Positions 31,070 to 35,720 of a stretch of DNA of 64,000 nucleotides are shown here, in pieces (the stretch's first letter is position 1; each line of letters begins with the position of its first letter). The notes under the pieces are model-generated. The model was not told the origin of the DNA and did not search any database. It was given only the letters and a program-made list of their open reading frames with translations. Source of the DNA: Acidobacteriota bacterium (GTDB taxonomy: Bacteria; Acidobacteriota; Blastocatellia; UBA7656); NCBI GenBank assembly GCA_040754075.1, contig JBFMDH010000011.1, forward strand, positions 62,001 through 126,000. The letters are read 5' to 3'. The position numbers and the translations under genes were made by a program.

Positions 31070-31699
31070 TTATTCACCCGGTCTTGTGCCTGCTACTGCC
31101 CGGTAAAGTTCAAGAAATTTATTCCGCACAGAAGCATCAAGCTTTTCGGCAAAAGCTGCATCAAGCGATTTTGCTTTAATCATTTCCTGAACATCCGCAA
31201 GGTCTTTCAAGCGGTCAGGCGCAGTCATTCCCGATGCAAGTTTCAATTCAATCAGTTTTTCAAGCGTGATGGTTTTCACTCCGTCAATCATCACAAGGTG
31301 TTCTTCGGGATTGGGAAACTGCACAGATTTCGGAAGCCCATCGCCTGGATATTCGTCAGTGGTGATAATTTCAATCGGCACATTCTCTTCTGATGTGCGA
31401 AATTTTTTTGTCGAACCTTCAAACGCTGGACGATAACCTAAACCAACCAATTCATCACGAAATTTTTGCAAACCTTCTTTGGTGAGCAATAAATCGATAT
31501 CTTCGGTAAATCGCCGATAACCATATTGATTCAAGGCAATCGCGCCAATCACCAGATAATCAATGCCATGTTCATCCAAATCATCGGCAATACGTCGCAA
31601 CGCATTATTTAAAAGGCTTTTACCCATAAAAAACCTCAAACCCTCTTCATAGGCTTCGGTTGGCGAAGACAGTATTTGTTGAAAATCTCTGGTCAGCAT
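31070..31699 (-). CDS. Nucleotidyltransferase-like protein
   Basis: A 209-residue cytoplasmic protein. The central motif YLVIGAIALNQYGYRRFTED followed by IDLLL is the nucleotidyltransferase-fold signature (GA/GG helix, then the DxD-type acidic pair). KTITLEKLIELKLASGMTAP, with RLKDLADVQEMI, matches the C-terminal helix of AbiEii/DUF6036-like enzymes. Related proteins serve as toxins of abortive-infection systems or as tRNA- and antibiotic-modifying enzymes, but no antitoxin partner is obvious here. GGAAT precedes the ATG. The window's most accessory-looking block starts here. Confidence 0.75.
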   Translation of the reverse strand: MLTRDFQQILSSPTEAYEEGLRFFMGKSLLNNALRRIADDLDEHGIDYLVIGAIALNQYGYRRFTEDIDLLLTKEGLQKFRDELVGLGYRPAFEGSTKKFRTSEENVPIEIITTDEYPGDGLPKSVQFPNPEEHLVMIDGVKTITLEKLIELKLASGMTAPDRLKDLADVQEMIKAKSLDAAFAEKLDASVRNKFLELYRAVAGTRPGE

Positions 31700-31848
31700 A
31701 TTCCATCTTCCAATCTGGTTGCCTTATCATACCACAGCCCAAGAACTGAACATCAAAATAAAAAAATCCGCCAGTATGCATTTTTGTTTGCAAACTAGCG
31801 GAGGAAACTATGGCAACGTTGATTTTTCGCTAACCGAAAACTTGCGGC

Positions 31849-32406
31849 TTATACGGCTTCTTTCAAAAATGTTTCTTCGTGCGCTTGATGGGTATTCCAA
31901 TGATGGAACAGCCAGTCTTCAAAGACGCGGGCTTCGGCAAGTTTGCCGCTAAAACGCGCGCGGTTGCGACCAATCAAAGCCAACACTTCCGCGTGATGCT
32001 GGCCGGCGCGGTCGCCCAGTCGCCCGAAATAATCGTAAAGCGCCGCGATGCGCGCAACTGAATCTTTTGCCGCCTGGACATTTTTAAAGCTCAAGGCGTT
32101 TCTAAAAAATCGGCTGTAGAGATTTTGTTCAAGCGCCGTTGTGGTATACAAATCGAAGTAGCCGCTGATTAAGCCTGCCGATTGCAGCACGCTTGCCACA
32201 TAACTCGGTTTGGTGCTGACCTTTTCCGCAATTTCACCGATTTCCGTTAAGCCCGATTTGAAAAGTTCAAGTATCTGACTTTTCTTTGAGGGCAGGGGCG
32301 CTTTACGAGTCGTGGTTCCCTTTTTAATTTGGTTTACTGAAACATTCGGCAAATCCGGTTGAAACGGCAGCACATTTGAATTAGTTAAAATTTCTTTTTC
32401 CTGCAT
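31849..32406 (-). CDS. Winged-helix-like protein of the Rad52/XRE locus
   Basis: A 185-residue protein from the ATG at 32406, which has an excellent AAGGAGGG box; an ATG nine codons upstream lacks one. Residues about 45-95 form a helix-turn-helix-like unit (KKSQILELFKSGLTEIGEIA then KVSTKPSYVASVLQSAGLIS). The C-terminal half is helical, with aromatic and His-rich ends (DWLFHHWNTHQAHEETFLKE). I do not recognise the full-length family. It lies 157 bases downstream of the SWIM-Rad52 gene on the same strand, and the two share a 13-bp upstream motif, suggesting joint regulation. Confidence 0.7.
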   Translation of the reverse strand: MQEKEILTNSNVLPFQPDLPNVSVNQIKKGTTTRKAPLPSKKSQILELFKSGLTEIGEIAEKVSTKPSYVASVLQSAGLISGYFDLYTTTALEQNLYSRFFRNALSFKNVQAAKDSVARIAALYDYFGRLGDRAGQHHAEVLALIGRNRARFSGKLAEARVFEDWLFHHWNTHQAHEETFLKEAV

Positions 32407-32474
32407 ATCATTTCCCTCCTTTGTGGAGAGCACATTCTTTACTAACGTCGATCAAAGACCGACTTCTCAACAAA

Positions 32475-32487
32475 TCTTGTTGACAAC
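32475..32487 (-). promoter_or_regulatory. Shared 13-bp motif upstream of the winged-helix gene
   Basis: The minus strand reads GTTGTCAACAAGA. An identical 13-mer lies at 33699-33711 upstream of the SWIM-Rad52 gene. The core GTTGTCAAC is a perfect odd palindrome. It sits 69-81 bases before the start at 32406. Confidence 0.5.
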
Positions 32488-32504
32488 TCTCATCTCCCAG
32501 TAAG

Positions 32505-32543
32505 CTTATTTGAGAGGCATTAATGTTCCACCTCTCAAACAAG
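32505..32543 (-). terminator. Hairpin after the SWIM-Rad52 gene
   Basis: CTTATTTGAGAGG (32505-32517) pairs with CCTCTCAAACAAG (32531-32543), 13-bp arms with one mismatch and a 13-base loop. It lies 21 bases beyond the SWIM-Rad52 stop. There is no T tract, so it may be a processing or attenuation hairpin. Confidence 0.5.
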
Positions 32544-32563
32544 TTACTTATTCTTTGCGAAAT

Positions 32564-33604
32564 TTATCCCGCCTGACGGAGTTCACCATCGTCTGAACTT
32601 TTGGATTTCAAATAATCAATCATGGCGCTGGCGGCGCGGCGCGATAATTCTTCGGGTTTGCAATTCAATAGTTCCTTGCATTCGGCTTCCGCATCAATCT
32701 TCTGTGAATTGGCAATGGCGCGAATCGCGACCAACTGGCGCGGGGTAACCAACTCCGCCATGGTTTTGGCAATCGGCTCTTTCGGAAAGCTGACTTTACT
32801 TGCGGTCGCTTCAATCTCCTCTTCTTCTTTGCGATAGAGTTCGCGGGCAATACCGAATTTCACCGCAGCGCGTTTCAAGGCATCGTGTTCGGCTTTCTTG
32901 ATTCCGGTTTCATCATAAGCGGTGCCGGTGCCGATGCCCTGGCGGGTGACGCCTTGAATGGTAAGCGAAGCGGTCACGGCAACCAAATCGCCAATCTGTT
33001 TGATGCTCACCACTTCATGCGACCAGTCAGGGCAGATGCGGTCAAGTAAATCGGCGACGGTGTGCCATTCGACATAATCGACTTCATGTTCACGCCCCTG
33101 GCGGTCGCGCCAACCGACGCGCTGTTTGACCATTTCGGGTTCTACCGATTGGGAAAGTTTTTTGAGCAATTGTTCAAACGGCAGCACGCGACCGGCGCTT
33201 GCCTGTCCGTTGACGAGATGAATATTGGCGTTTTCGTTCTGTGTCATTGGTGAAACAACCTCCTGCGTTTCGGTTTCTGAAATAACTGGGGTTTCTTGCA
33301 CCCCAATCATTTGGTTACGGGGTTGGTGATGACCGGCGTTTGCTTCCTCGGCTTCGAGGTGAAACTTAACGGCTAAAATATGTTCACAGCGAAAGCGCGG
33401 TTCGCGCACCGTGCGTTCCTGAAACTGCGCGCAACTGCATTTCACGCGCCCGTCTTCATCTTTCCAGACGCGAAAGGTCTCTTTGCGAAATCCCGGCGCG
33501 GTCACGTTGAACCCTTCAAAATCGCGCCCCACCAAACCCATTGCCGCAATTGCCTTAGCGCGACCGATAGCCGAATTGTTGTGTTCCGGTGCGTTATGAA
33601 TCAT
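32564..33604 (-). CDS. SWIM zinc finger fused to a Rad52-like strand-annealing domain
   Basis: A 346-residue cytoplasmic protein. The N-terminal SWIM-type finger has Cys56, Cys58, Cys73 and His75 (KCSCAQFQ and RCEHILAVK). A flexible linker follows (about 85-140). Residues about 140-260 form a Rad52/Rad22-like domain: LLDRICPDWSHEVVSIKQIG, AVTASLTIQGVTRQGIGTGT, KKAEHDALKRAAVKFGIARE. The tail (about 270-340) is a small helical module (VTPRQLVAIRAIANSQKIDA). Rad52 and DdrA-like proteins anneal single strands and protect DNA ends, and SWIM domains bind DNA or partners in several repair complexes. The domain assignments come from motifs; the joint function is inferred. The gene is divergent from an XRE/IrrE-like pair. 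Confidence 0.82.
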   Translation of the reverse strand: MIHNAPEHNNSAIGRAKAIAAMGLVGRDFEGFNVTAPGFRKETFRVWKDEDGRVKCSCAQFQERTVREPRFRCEHILAVKFHLEAEEANAGHHQPRNQMIGVQETPVISETETQEVVSPMTQNENANIHLVNGQASAGRVLPFEQLLKKLSQSVEPEMVKQRVGWRDRQGREHEVDYVEWHTVADLLDRICPDWSHEVVSIKQIGDLVAVTASLTIQGVTRQGIGTGTAYDETGIKKAEHDALKRAAVKFGIARELYRKEEEEIEATASKVSFPKEPIAKTMAELVTPRQLVAIRAIANSQKIDAEAECKELLNCKPEELSRRAASAMIDYLKSKSSDDGELRQAG

Positions 33605-33654
33605 TGTGTGTCTCTCCTAACTTCTTTACTCATGCCAACCGGCGTTTGATACAT

Positions 33655-33721
33655 CGCAAAGCGCGTTGCTCGAAGAAAACCCCGTACCCTCGTCCGTTTC
33701 TTGTTGACAACGCGCTTTGCG
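33655..33721. repeat. Perfect 14-bp inverted repeat in the SWIM-Rad52 leader
   Basis: CGCAAAGCGCGTTG (33655-33668) and CAACGCGCTTTGCG (33708-33721) are exact inverses, 39 bases apart. The right arm overlaps the shared 13-mer at 33699-33711. The element lies 51-117 bases upstream of the SWIM-Rad52 start. Confidence 0.75.
33699..33711 (-). promoter_or_regulatory. Shared 13-bp motif upstream of the SWIM-Rad52 gene
   Basis: Minus strand GTTGTCAACAAGA, identical to 32475-32487. It is placed 95-107 bases before the start at 33604. Confidence 0.5.
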
Positions 33722-33779
33722 AATCTTTTTAAGTTGCCAGCCGCCTTATCATTTCCTTGTACGTTCAAAAATCTTATCG

Positions 33780-33797
33780 TGTTTCATACGTGAAACA
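33780..33797. promoter_or_regulatory. 18-bp palindromic operator in the divergent region
   Basis: TGTTTCATACGTGAAACA has perfect 7-bp arms around TACG. A further half-site TGAAACA lies at 33855-33861, inside the predicted promoter of the XRE gene. The placement suits autoregulation by the XRE protein and control of the divergent SWIM-Rad52 gene. Confidence 0.65.
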
Positions 33798-33840
33798 ATG
33801 TATCATAGCCCTGTGACTGTTGCAAGAATAAAATAAAGTG

Positions 33841-33869
33841 TTGCGTGCAATACTTGAAACATGTTATAA
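33841..33869 (+). promoter_or_regulatory. Likely promoter of the XRE gene
   Basis: TTGCGT (33841-33846) and TTATAA (33864-33869) with 17-bp spacing, 35 bases before the XRE start. A TGAAACA half-site lies in the spacer, where a bound repressor would block polymerase. Confidence 0.55.
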
Positions 33870-33904
33870 AAAGACCGGTAAAACAGCAGGAAGGAGTGTC
33901 TACA

Positions 33905-34327
33905 ATGAACATCGAACCCACATTAAACATCGTTGAGTTGGGCGAGTACGTGAAACGCAAACGCGAAGATGACAAGTTGTCTTTGCGTGAAGTGGCAAAA
34001 AAAATCAACGTCAGCGCCTCGACGCTCTCGCGCATCGAAAATGGCATTGGCGTGCCCGACAGCGCCACGCTTGCGCGGCTCGCCGCCTGGCTTGGCATAC
34101 CGCTTGAGCGATTGATGAAAGGGTCTTTGCTCAGCGAACATTTAACCAGAGATGCGGCACAGGCTGATGATTGGGCAGAGCCTGTGATATATTTTCCCAC
34201 GGAATCCACGCCGAATATTGTTGAAGCTCACTTGCGCGCCGACCGCAAATTGAACCCCGAAATGGCCAAGGCGCTCGCAGAGCTTTTCCGTGTCGCGTAC
34301 AAACAGTTCGCCGACAAAGAGAAATAA
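33905..34327 (+). CDS. XRE-family transcriptional regulator
   Basis: A 140-residue protein. The ATG at 33905 follows AAGGAG; a longer frame starting at 33845 lacks such a box. The lambda-repressor-like helix-turn-helix spans about 12-70: LGEYVKRKREDDKLSLREVA, NVSASTLSRIENGIGVPDSA, LARLAAWLGIPLERLM. The C-terminal part is helical (NPEMAKALAELFRVAYKQFA). It is followed 87 bases later by an ImmA/IrrE-like gene. In such pairs the peptidase normally cleaves the XRE repressor after a DNA-damage or stress signal. The palindrome at 33780 is its most likely operator. Confidence 0.9.
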   Translation: MNIEPTLNIVELGEYVKRKREDDKLSLREVAKKINVSASTLSRIENGIGVPDSATLARLAAWLGIPLERLMKGSLLSEHLTRDAAQADDWAEPVIYFPTESTPNIVEAHLRADRKLNPEMAKALAELFRVAYKQFADKEK

Positions 34328-34414
34328 CTGGAATTGTTCAACCGCGAGTAAAAACCGGGTTGACTATTTGTTGAACAGTTTCATTCATTGCATCATCAGT
34401 CGAAAGAAGTTGGT

Positions 34415-35044
34415 ATGGAAAACGAAACCGCAGAACAGCCCTTTTCGCTCGAAGACTTGTTGCCGCCGACCGCCAAACGTCGCGTACACGAACGCATCGC
34501 CCTCAAAATACGCGAATTTGCCGGTGTCACAATCGATCAGATATTGAACCCCTGGGAACTCGCCCCTTACGTTAAACTCCGGGTCGTCAATATACGCGAT
34601 GTGAAAGGACTCTCTGAAGAAGCCCGTAAACAACTGCTCCGCATGGATGGCAAAGGATGGTCGGGCGGCGCAAGTCGCCCGTTACCCGATGGCTCGCGTT
34701 TGGTATTTTTAAATCCCACCCACGGCAAAGAACGTCAGGCTGCAACCTTGATGGAAGAGGTCTGTCACGTCATCCTGGGTCATTCGCCGACCAGCATTCG
34801 CACCGAGCATTCCGACGAGCAGATCAATTTCCGCAACTTCAACGAAAATCAGGAAGAGGTCGCTTATGCGGTTGGCGCAGCCGCTTTGGTTCCCTTCTTT
34901 CCCTTAAAGCTCGCGGTTGATGAAGGCTTCTCATCAAATCGAATCGCTCGTCGTTTCGGCGTCAGCCGCGAACTGGTTGAGTACCGCATCAAAGTGTGCC
35001 GTTTGTGGGAAGCCTACAAACAGAAACAAAAGAGCGTGAGTTAA
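34415..35044 (+). CDS. ImmA/IrrE-like protein with altered zinc motif
   Basis: A 209-residue protein starting at ATG 34415 behind AAAGAAG. The family architecture is clear: an N-terminal helix bundle, a beta segment ending RLVFLNPTHGKERQAATLME, the motif region EEVCHVILGH, the second conserved helix EEVAYAVGAAALVPFFPL and the end helix IARRFGVSRELVEYRI. In place of the HExxH zinc motif it has Glu114-Glu-Val-Cys-His118, so the first ligand histidine is a glutamate. The nearby His123 could contribute. It may be a metal-independent sensor or use a modified site. It should act on the XRE protein encoded upstream. Confidence 0.8.
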   Translation: MENETAEQPFSLEDLLPPTAKRRVHERIALKIREFAGVTIDQILNPWELAPYVKLRVVNIRDVKGLSEEARKQLLRMDGKGWSGGASRPLPDGSRLVFLNPTHGKERQAATLMEEVCHVILGHSPTSIRTEHSDEQINFRNFNENQEEVAYAVGAAALVPFFPLKLAVDEGFSSNRIARRFGVSRELVEYRIKVCRLWEAYKQKQKSVS

Positions 35045-35078
35045 ATAGCGCAAGCCTCGACTTAATTTCATTTCCAAA

Positions 35079-35720
35079 ATGAATCCGTTTATGCCAAAAG
35101 CCACGACTAAGAAGAAGTCTGTCTACGAGGTTCATCCAAGCGTAGCAATGGTGAAAGATTGGATAGAACGTTTACCGGAAAAGACCGGTAGAAGTTTGGA
35201 CGAATGGGTTCAGTTGGTAAAAAGCGCAGGTCCCACCTCTGAAAAAGAACAACGCCGGTGGCTTAAAGAAACTTATGGACTTGGCACCAATTCCGCCTGG
35301 TGGATTGCCGAACGCGCCGCAGGTAAAGGATTGGAAGACGGTGACCCTGAAACCTACCTCATTGCTGCCGAAAAATATGTTGAGGACATGTTTGCAGGCT
35401 CCAAAACCAAACTAAAACCGCTCTACGACGCGCTCTTGAAACTCGCCAAAAGCATCGGCAAAGAGGTCAAAGCCTGTCCCTGCAAAACCATCGTGCCGCT
35501 TTATCGCAAACACGTCTTCGCGCAAATCAAACCGACGACCCGCACCCGCATTGATTTCGGCTTCGCGCTCAAAAATACCCAACCGACGAAAAGGCTCCTA
35601 TCAACCGGCGGTTTTGAAAAAGGCGACCGCATCACCCACCGCATCGAAATTACTTCGCTTACAGACATTGATGACGAGGTGAAACAGTGGTTACGGAAAG
35701 CCTACGAAATGGACGTTTGA
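35079..35720 (+). CDS. DUF4287-DUF5655 protein
   Basis: A 213-residue cytoplasmic protein. A DUF4287 unit is at about 18-65 (HPSVAMVKDWIERLPEKTGR, then RWLKETYGLGTNSAWWIAER), and DUF5655 is at about 110-200 (YDALLKLAKSIGKEVKACPC, VFAQIKPTTRTRIDFGFAL). The two domains are often found fused. DUF5655 resembles an endonuclease-associated or nucleic-acid-binding fold, but no role is proven. It follows the IrrE-like gene by 34 bases and may be in the same operon. A second ATG four codons in is equally possible as the start. Confidence 0.8.
   Translation: MNPFMPKATTKKKSVYEVHPSVAMVKDWIERLPEKTGRSLDEWVQLVKSAGPTSEKEQRRWLKETYGLGTNSAWWIAERAAGKGLEDGDPETYLIAAEKYVEDMFAGSKTKLKPLYDALLKLAKSIGKEVKACPCKTIVPLYRKHVFAQIKPTTRTRIDFGFALKNTQPTKRLLSTGGFEKGDRITHRIEITSLTDIDDEVKQWLRKAYEMDV

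Follow-up and report, generated by a model that had tools for sequence, protein, structure and literature searches.

A conserved SWIM-Rad52 locus in Acidobacteriota with a candidate DdrO-like repressor and an EExxH M78 protein

Introduction

In the IrrE/DdrO system of Deinococcus, an M78 protein cleaves DdrO, a two-domain XRE repressor of about 130–140 amino acids (aa), which acts at palindromic operators over transcription starts and has a Rad52-like gene, ddrA, in its regulon. IrrE carries a GAF-like domain within the same chain (PMC7907104). Related pairs of COG2856 (M78) and XRE proteins, such as ImmA/ImmR and Rir/Crh, are encoded by adjacent genes, with the M78 partner presumed to relieve repression. 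On the recombination side, the Rad52_Rad22 domain and its conserved LKRA region are found in DdrA and in the phage Rad52/Erf annealing proteins, and the Shu complex brings SWIM proteins into recombination through Shu2/SWS1, which bear the signature CXC...CXHXXA (PMC6316741). Here, we analyze a locus of an Acidobacteriota bacterium of the class Blastocatellia that has counterparts of several of these elements: adjacent genes for an XRE repressor and an M78 protein, a candidate palindromic operator over a presumed transcription start, and a gene for a Rad52-type protein that bears both the LKRA region and the SWIM signature. It occupies positions 31849–35044 of a 64,000-nucleotide stretch of contig JBFMDH010000011.1 (positions 62,001 to 126,000), referred to as the window. 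A preliminary description, made from the sequence of the window, had proposed a self-contained, damage-inducible repair module with a different sensor and a new Rad52 architecture. The evidence presented below leans towards a switch in which the M78 partner frees a promoter from a DdrO-like repressor during stress, so that an annealing protein of the Rad52 type is made. In the open-access literature, no study of IrrE/DdrO that mentions Acidobacteria was found.

Results

A four-gene block is conserved across families of the class

The block consists of the following genes and domains:

31849..32406, minus strand: winged-helix protein (wH), 185 aa, with a putative N-terminal (winged) helix-turn-helix (HTH) and a helical domain; eight homologues aligned
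32564..33604, minus strand: SWIM-Rad52 fusion, 346 aa (PF04098, 3.7e-14)
32801..33178, minus strand: Rad52 core, residues 143–268, its LKRA motif aligned with human RAD52
33356..33472, minus strand: SWIM domain, residues 45–83 (CSC...CEHILA)
33905..34327, plus strand: XRE repressor of 140 aa, with an HTH and a helical C-terminal domain that is conserved
34415..35044, plus strand: M78 (ImmA/IrrE-like) protein, 209 aa
34754..34768, plus strand: EEVCH at the position of the IrrE HExxH metal motif

All four open reading frames (ORFs) are intact and lie where the preliminary description had placed them, with the genes for wH and SWIM-Rad52 divergent from those for XRE and M78. As a check on its proposal, that description had named the recurrence of the block in other genomes, and the full arrangement was indeed found in at least eight genomes, which represent three of the families in the class: the window's genome, G001 and G003 (family f1), G033 and G056 (f8), and G020, G435 and G449 (f3). 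Gene calls across genomes were simple ORF picks on mostly draft assemblies, and the resulting counts are non-independent. Many more genomes contain the divergent Rad52/XRE pair alone. In genus g11 of f3, the usual state is a SWIM-less Rad52 gene divergent from XRE, M78 being encoded at a separate genomic location; several other f3 genera combine SWIM-Rad52 with XRE. Of the 118 class genomes, 87 have the XRE gene, nearly always as a single copy. When 396 genomes of the phylum were sampled, 28 had this Rad52, every one of them within the class, and all 28 also encoded the M78 orthologue; six further class genomes of this sample had the M78 protein and not Rad52. The XRE gene also lies next to the M78 gene in genomes that lack Rad52, and in many genomes the M78 gene is unlinked to Rad52/XRE. 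The term self-contained applies to the block only in part, given the XRE/M78 pairs without Rad52, the frequently unlinked M78 gene and a second operator pair elsewhere (see below).

The SWIM-Rad52 protein has a predicted RAD52-like fold

Judged against Pfam cut-offs, as were all profile matches, the central domain of the fusion belongs to Rad52_Rad22 (PF04098; 53.4 bits vs a cut-off of 20.3). The SWIM domain (PF04434) stays below its gathering score of 19.6 bits, with 14.6 bits for the window and 16.8 for L231, but the CxC...CxHxxA ligand pattern is unbroken in the window and kept in all eight SWIM-bearing rows aligned. An AlphaFold2 model built on 13 homologues was confident for residues 6–90 (SWIM) and about 143–260 (Rad52 core), with the predicted local distance difference test (pLDDT) of the core mostly above 80; the remainder comprises a helical tail and a long low-confidence linker. 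A Foldseek search against the PDB returned human RAD52 (4.4e-7) and yeast Mgm101 (5.7e-6) as best matches, confirming the Rad52 fold that the preliminary description had singled out for checking. Its claim of a new architecture holds within the libraries searched, and no SWIM-Rad52 fusion was found in the open-access literature.

Several observations concern the linker. M120, a potential second translation start with its own Shine-Dalgarno sequence, looked strong in the window and three relatives; we rejected it, as it was weak or absent in others and Glu-rich linkers yield such sequences anyway. The window's linker also contains one operator-like sequence:

33241..33256: operator-like sequence with one mismatch, encoding VSPMTQ; as a single copy not significant (p=0.13)

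In two relatives, 3–4 in-frame operator palindromes follow one another in 36-bp steps (L037, aa 128–164; L038, aa 125–149). They encode VSSMKQ-like repeats and exceed codon shuffles (p≤0.003); a fusion scar, internal control and repeat growth are candidate explanations.

A two-box candidate operator lies over the presumed Rad52 promoter

Between the divergent genes, we located the following elements:

33781..33796: operator O1, GTTTCATACGTGAAAC, over the presumed SWIM-Rad52 transcription start
33797..33802, minus strand: presumed −10 element (TACATT) for SWIM-Rad52 transcription, spaced 17 bp from TTGCAA; read from sequence, neighbourhood conserved in relatives
33819..33834: operator O2, GTTGCAAGAATAAAAT, 38 bp from O1, containing the presumed −35 element TTGCAA
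33841..33869, plus strand: presumed XRE promoter, TTGCGT-17-TTATAA; read from sequence
33845–33860: weak third operator-like site within the presumed XRE promoter

The preliminary description had noted palindromes in this region, and GTTTCA-N4-TGAAAC palindromes are visible in the aligned intergenic regions of relatives. Formulated as a pair of GTTKCA-N4-TGMAAC boxes held at a constant 38-bp register, with up to three mismatches allowed, the pattern is present in 62 of 118 class genomes compared to one match for a reversed control, and the palindromes are therefore conserved beyond chance. The pair occurs nearly always once per genome, at the XRE gene, and the O1–O2 register is kept in f1, f3 and f8. 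Taken together, the boxes look like real operators, though as candidate sites identified by pattern. With the presumed −35 element inside O2 and the −10 element beside O1, O1 covers the presumed SWIM-Rad52 transcription start. Exact one-box sites also concentrate at the Rad52/XRE locus (6 of 7 in G033, 5 of 5 in G056). The relaxed one-box pattern, with 23 sites in the window's genome vs 5 for the control and many of the inspected sites inside genes, occurs too often to define a regulon. Scans for promoters and terminators gave no more than shuffled sequences.

The presumptive ligand of these sites, the XRE protein, matched HTH_3 with 57.2 bits (cut-off 23) and has a strongly conserved C-terminal domain. 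Its HTH was modeled with confidence, and DdrO (6jq1) was the third best Foldseek match of the model, over 118–119 columns at a low template modelling score.

The M78 partner carries EExxH in place of HExxH

The M78 protein scored 54 bits against Peptidase_M78 (cut-off 22), and the profile aligns with IrrE. EExxH replaces HExxH in 39 of 39 class sequences (34 full-motif loci and five from family f6); among sequences of the phylum's other families, two have EExxH and three have HExxH. The remaining metal-site residues are kept, as judged by the alignment with IrrE. A GAF-like domain was not found in the 209-aa protein. The different sensor of the preliminary description was therefore borne out in one respect, namely EExxH and the missing GAF-like domain. 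At most of the f3 loci examined, the M78 gene has a GAF-SpoIIE gene as its neighbor or one gene away; that it serves as the counterpart of the GAF-like domain of IrrE is suggestive only.

Because the M78 protein carries EExxH, cleavage of the XRE repressor is uncertain. A variant within the favored reading, whose likelihood overlaps with it, is a binding antirepressor that has lost catalysis and blocks XRE dimerization, as reported for Rir and Crh of Streptococcus thermophilus, Rir being a precedent for release without cleavage (PMC7907104). The uniform EExxH of the class, together with the HExxH that some distant pairs from the phylum's other families retain, would fit such a loss. Conversely, the glutamate at the catalytic position, the second histidine and the third-ligand glutamate are invariant, which a pure binding role does not obviously demand, and the substituting glutamate is itself able to bind metal. 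We regard the antirepressor as a serious contender that falls a little short of an even chance.

Additional targets hint at a small stress regulon

A second operator pair adjoins nnr, the gene for NAD(P)HX repair, in G000 and G001 and, in weaker form, in G003, all from the window's family:

L176 2867–2920 and L185 2967–3020: second operator pair beside nnr

On the side opposite nnr, the pair is flanked by an AHSA1-like, VOC or DUF1579 gene, and in f3, VOC and DUF1579 genes also come after Rad52. The further genes that accompany the operators or share the operon of Rad52 resemble repair or detoxification genes (nnr, VOC/bleomycin-resistance-like, DUF1579), which supports the switch proposed above. 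The nnr operator pair and the recurring VOC and DUF1579 genes hint at a small stress regulon. As a separate observation in one genome, G012, an exact one-box operator is located 2 nucleotides (nt) before a ruvA-like start (L057 1501–1516).

The same genes could reflect a different signal. The Rad52 protein might serve natural transformation or routine replication-fork recombination, and the operator might answer a non-DNA-damage cue such as redox or metabolite stress; the operator pair beside nnr and the recurrent VOC and DUF1579 genes would suit this, as would the response of IrrE to zinc freed by oxidative stress (PMC7907104). Yet no competence genes were seen nearby, and oxidative stress and DNA damage overlap, so that such a signal is compatible with a stress-released repressor. 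On balance, we consider this alternative rather unlikely.

The block is inherited with the chromosome

By sequence criteria, the block is chromosomally inherited and not visibly mobile. The XRE tree requires 7 family-label changes, where 5 is the lowest possible number and shuffled labels average 15.2; the Rad52 tree requires 4, where 3 is the lowest and shuffling averages 7.8. Flanking genes are common to different genera, as for the window and L035, and in many f3 genomes, the locus adjoins a DAHP synthase-like gene. No mobility genes were recognised among the immediate neighbors of the block. These data disfavor the mobile-element module that the preliminary description had named as its main alternative, here taken in the wider sense of a phage or mobile-element recombination module or abortive-infection system captured by the chromosome. 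For such an origin speak the frequency of COG2856/XRE pairs in phages and conjugative elements (PMC8072749), the Erf-like PHROG matches, the Rad52 cores on viral contigs (28–45% identical) and a paralogue in G001 that comprises SWIM and a C-terminal tail, lacks the Rad52 core and adjoins a DUF932 gene, possibly on a mobile element (L046 7159–7863, minus strand). Against it stand the shared flanks, the nearly always single-copy XRE gene and the largely family-congruent trees; moreover, the phage collection contained no M78 match, and phages and plasmids gave only weak Rad52 matches. PADLOC assigned no defence family at a convincing score to SWIM-Rad52, wH or M78, and XRE matched generic HTH models. 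Capture of a mobile module is very improbable. Equally improbable is a toxin-antitoxin (TA) pair with M78 as toxin, for which a Brucella abortus zinc metalloproteinase/XRE pair, described as putative type II TA (PMC10538038), offers a parallel, as an addiction pair would hardly be separated with both genes kept, as in many f3 genomes, or have its operator at a conserved non-TA gene.

The wH protein, leader repeat and neighboring genes

The wH protein matched no Pfam family, its N-terminal HTH gave weak matches only, and comparison with solved structures yielded no reliable match. The eight aligned homologues nevertheless define a conserved family in which the stretches DRAGQH and NRAR are kept. 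The wH gene adjoins the SWIM-Rad52 gene in six genomes; in L231, it has its own operator just upstream, and in L155, it is divergent from XRE at a locus from which Rad52 is absent. The presumed leader of SWIM-Rad52 contains a further element:

33654..33722, minus strand: perfect 15-bp inverted repeat with a 39-nt loop, in the presumed SWIM-Rad52 5' leader

This repeat is kept in G001 with two compensatory changes, and an Rfam search of window positions 31600–35200, leader repeat included, returned nothing. In the window, an AbiEii-like nucleotidyltransferase gene (31070–31699, minus strand) adjoins the block and is not conserved with it. In f6, the XRE/M78 pair adjoins other genes (loci L137, L150–L152, L154 and L158), including those for an ECF sigma factor (L151), an LptF/LptG permease (L150) or lookalike genes.

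Discussion

The sequences establish the gene block, its domains and the operator-like boxes, together with their conservation and inheritance; from them, we infer a circuit of repression, M78-mediated release, damage induction and annealing, with roles for the SWIM domain and wH. A DdrO-like XRE dimer would bind O1 and O2, which lie over the promoter of SWIM-Rad52 and close to that of XRE itself, keeping both genes low. Upon a stress signal, the M78 protein would lift repression, by cleavage, as IrrE does on DdrO, or by binding, allowing a burst of SWIM-Rad52 and wH. The Rad52 domain may then assemble into a ring for binding single-stranded DNA and annealing it, and the SWIM domain would be a probable zinc-dependent protein or DNA contact that steers Rad52 to recombination partners, comparable to the SWIM proteins of the eukaryotic Shu complex. 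Support comes from the family and fold of the Rad52 domain, the block in f1, f3 and f8, the operator pair over the Rad52 promoter, the M78 orthologue in all 28 genomes of the phylum sample that have this Rad52, the XRE–M78 adjacency without Rad52, the DdrO fold match and the IrrE alignment.

Several points weigh against this circuit. Peptidase activity of the M78 protein is doubtful because the first of the histidines with which IrrE binds zinc is missing from EExxH. The presumed promoter elements lie within O2 and beside O1, and therefore part of the 38-bp register is imposed by the promoter itself. The C-terminal helices of the XRE model have low confidence (pLDDT 63–77). At recA of the window's genome, no two-box operator was found, the best site (10/12) being unconvincing as a target. 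Finally, DdrA, the Deinococcus relative of Rad52, showed no annealing in published tests (PMC515370).

That gene order and operator are conserved across several families points to a response to stress or DNA damage that is inherited within the class and distinct from that of Deinococcus. A broader proposal, which we put forward tentatively and hold to be somewhat less than probable, is an SOS-independent stress response of this class in which an EExxH M78 protein controls a DdrO-like repressor, and whose main effector, SWIM-Rad52, unites kinds of function that in eukaryotes are divided among Rad52 and SWIM-domain mediators. If true, IrrE/DdrO-type control of a Rad52 gene would not be confined to Deinococcus-Thermus but extend to a phylum that is large and poorly studied, offering a natural test of M78 function without canonical HExxH and a compact bacterial system for the role of the SWIM domain in recombination.

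Compared to the known systems, the locus differs in several respects. Unlike IrrE, its M78 protein carries EExxH rather than HExxH and has no GAF-like domain, and the XRE and M78 genes are adjacent. Whereas DdrO operators are found at recA and about 20 genes, there are 1–2 two-box pairs per genome here, none of them at recA, although single-box targets may exist in addition, and the candidate operator looks unlike the radiation/desiccation response motif (RDRM). In contrast to ImmA/ImmR and Rir/Crh, the pair is chromosomally fixed across the class rather than phage-borne or conjugative, has its operator at a Rad52-type gene and again carries EExxH. Relative to DdrA and the phage Rad52/Erf proteins, the window's protein has an N-terminal SWIM domain and a long low-confidence linker, and whereas Shu2/SWS1 is partnered with a RAD51 paralogue, SWIM is here fused to Rad52.

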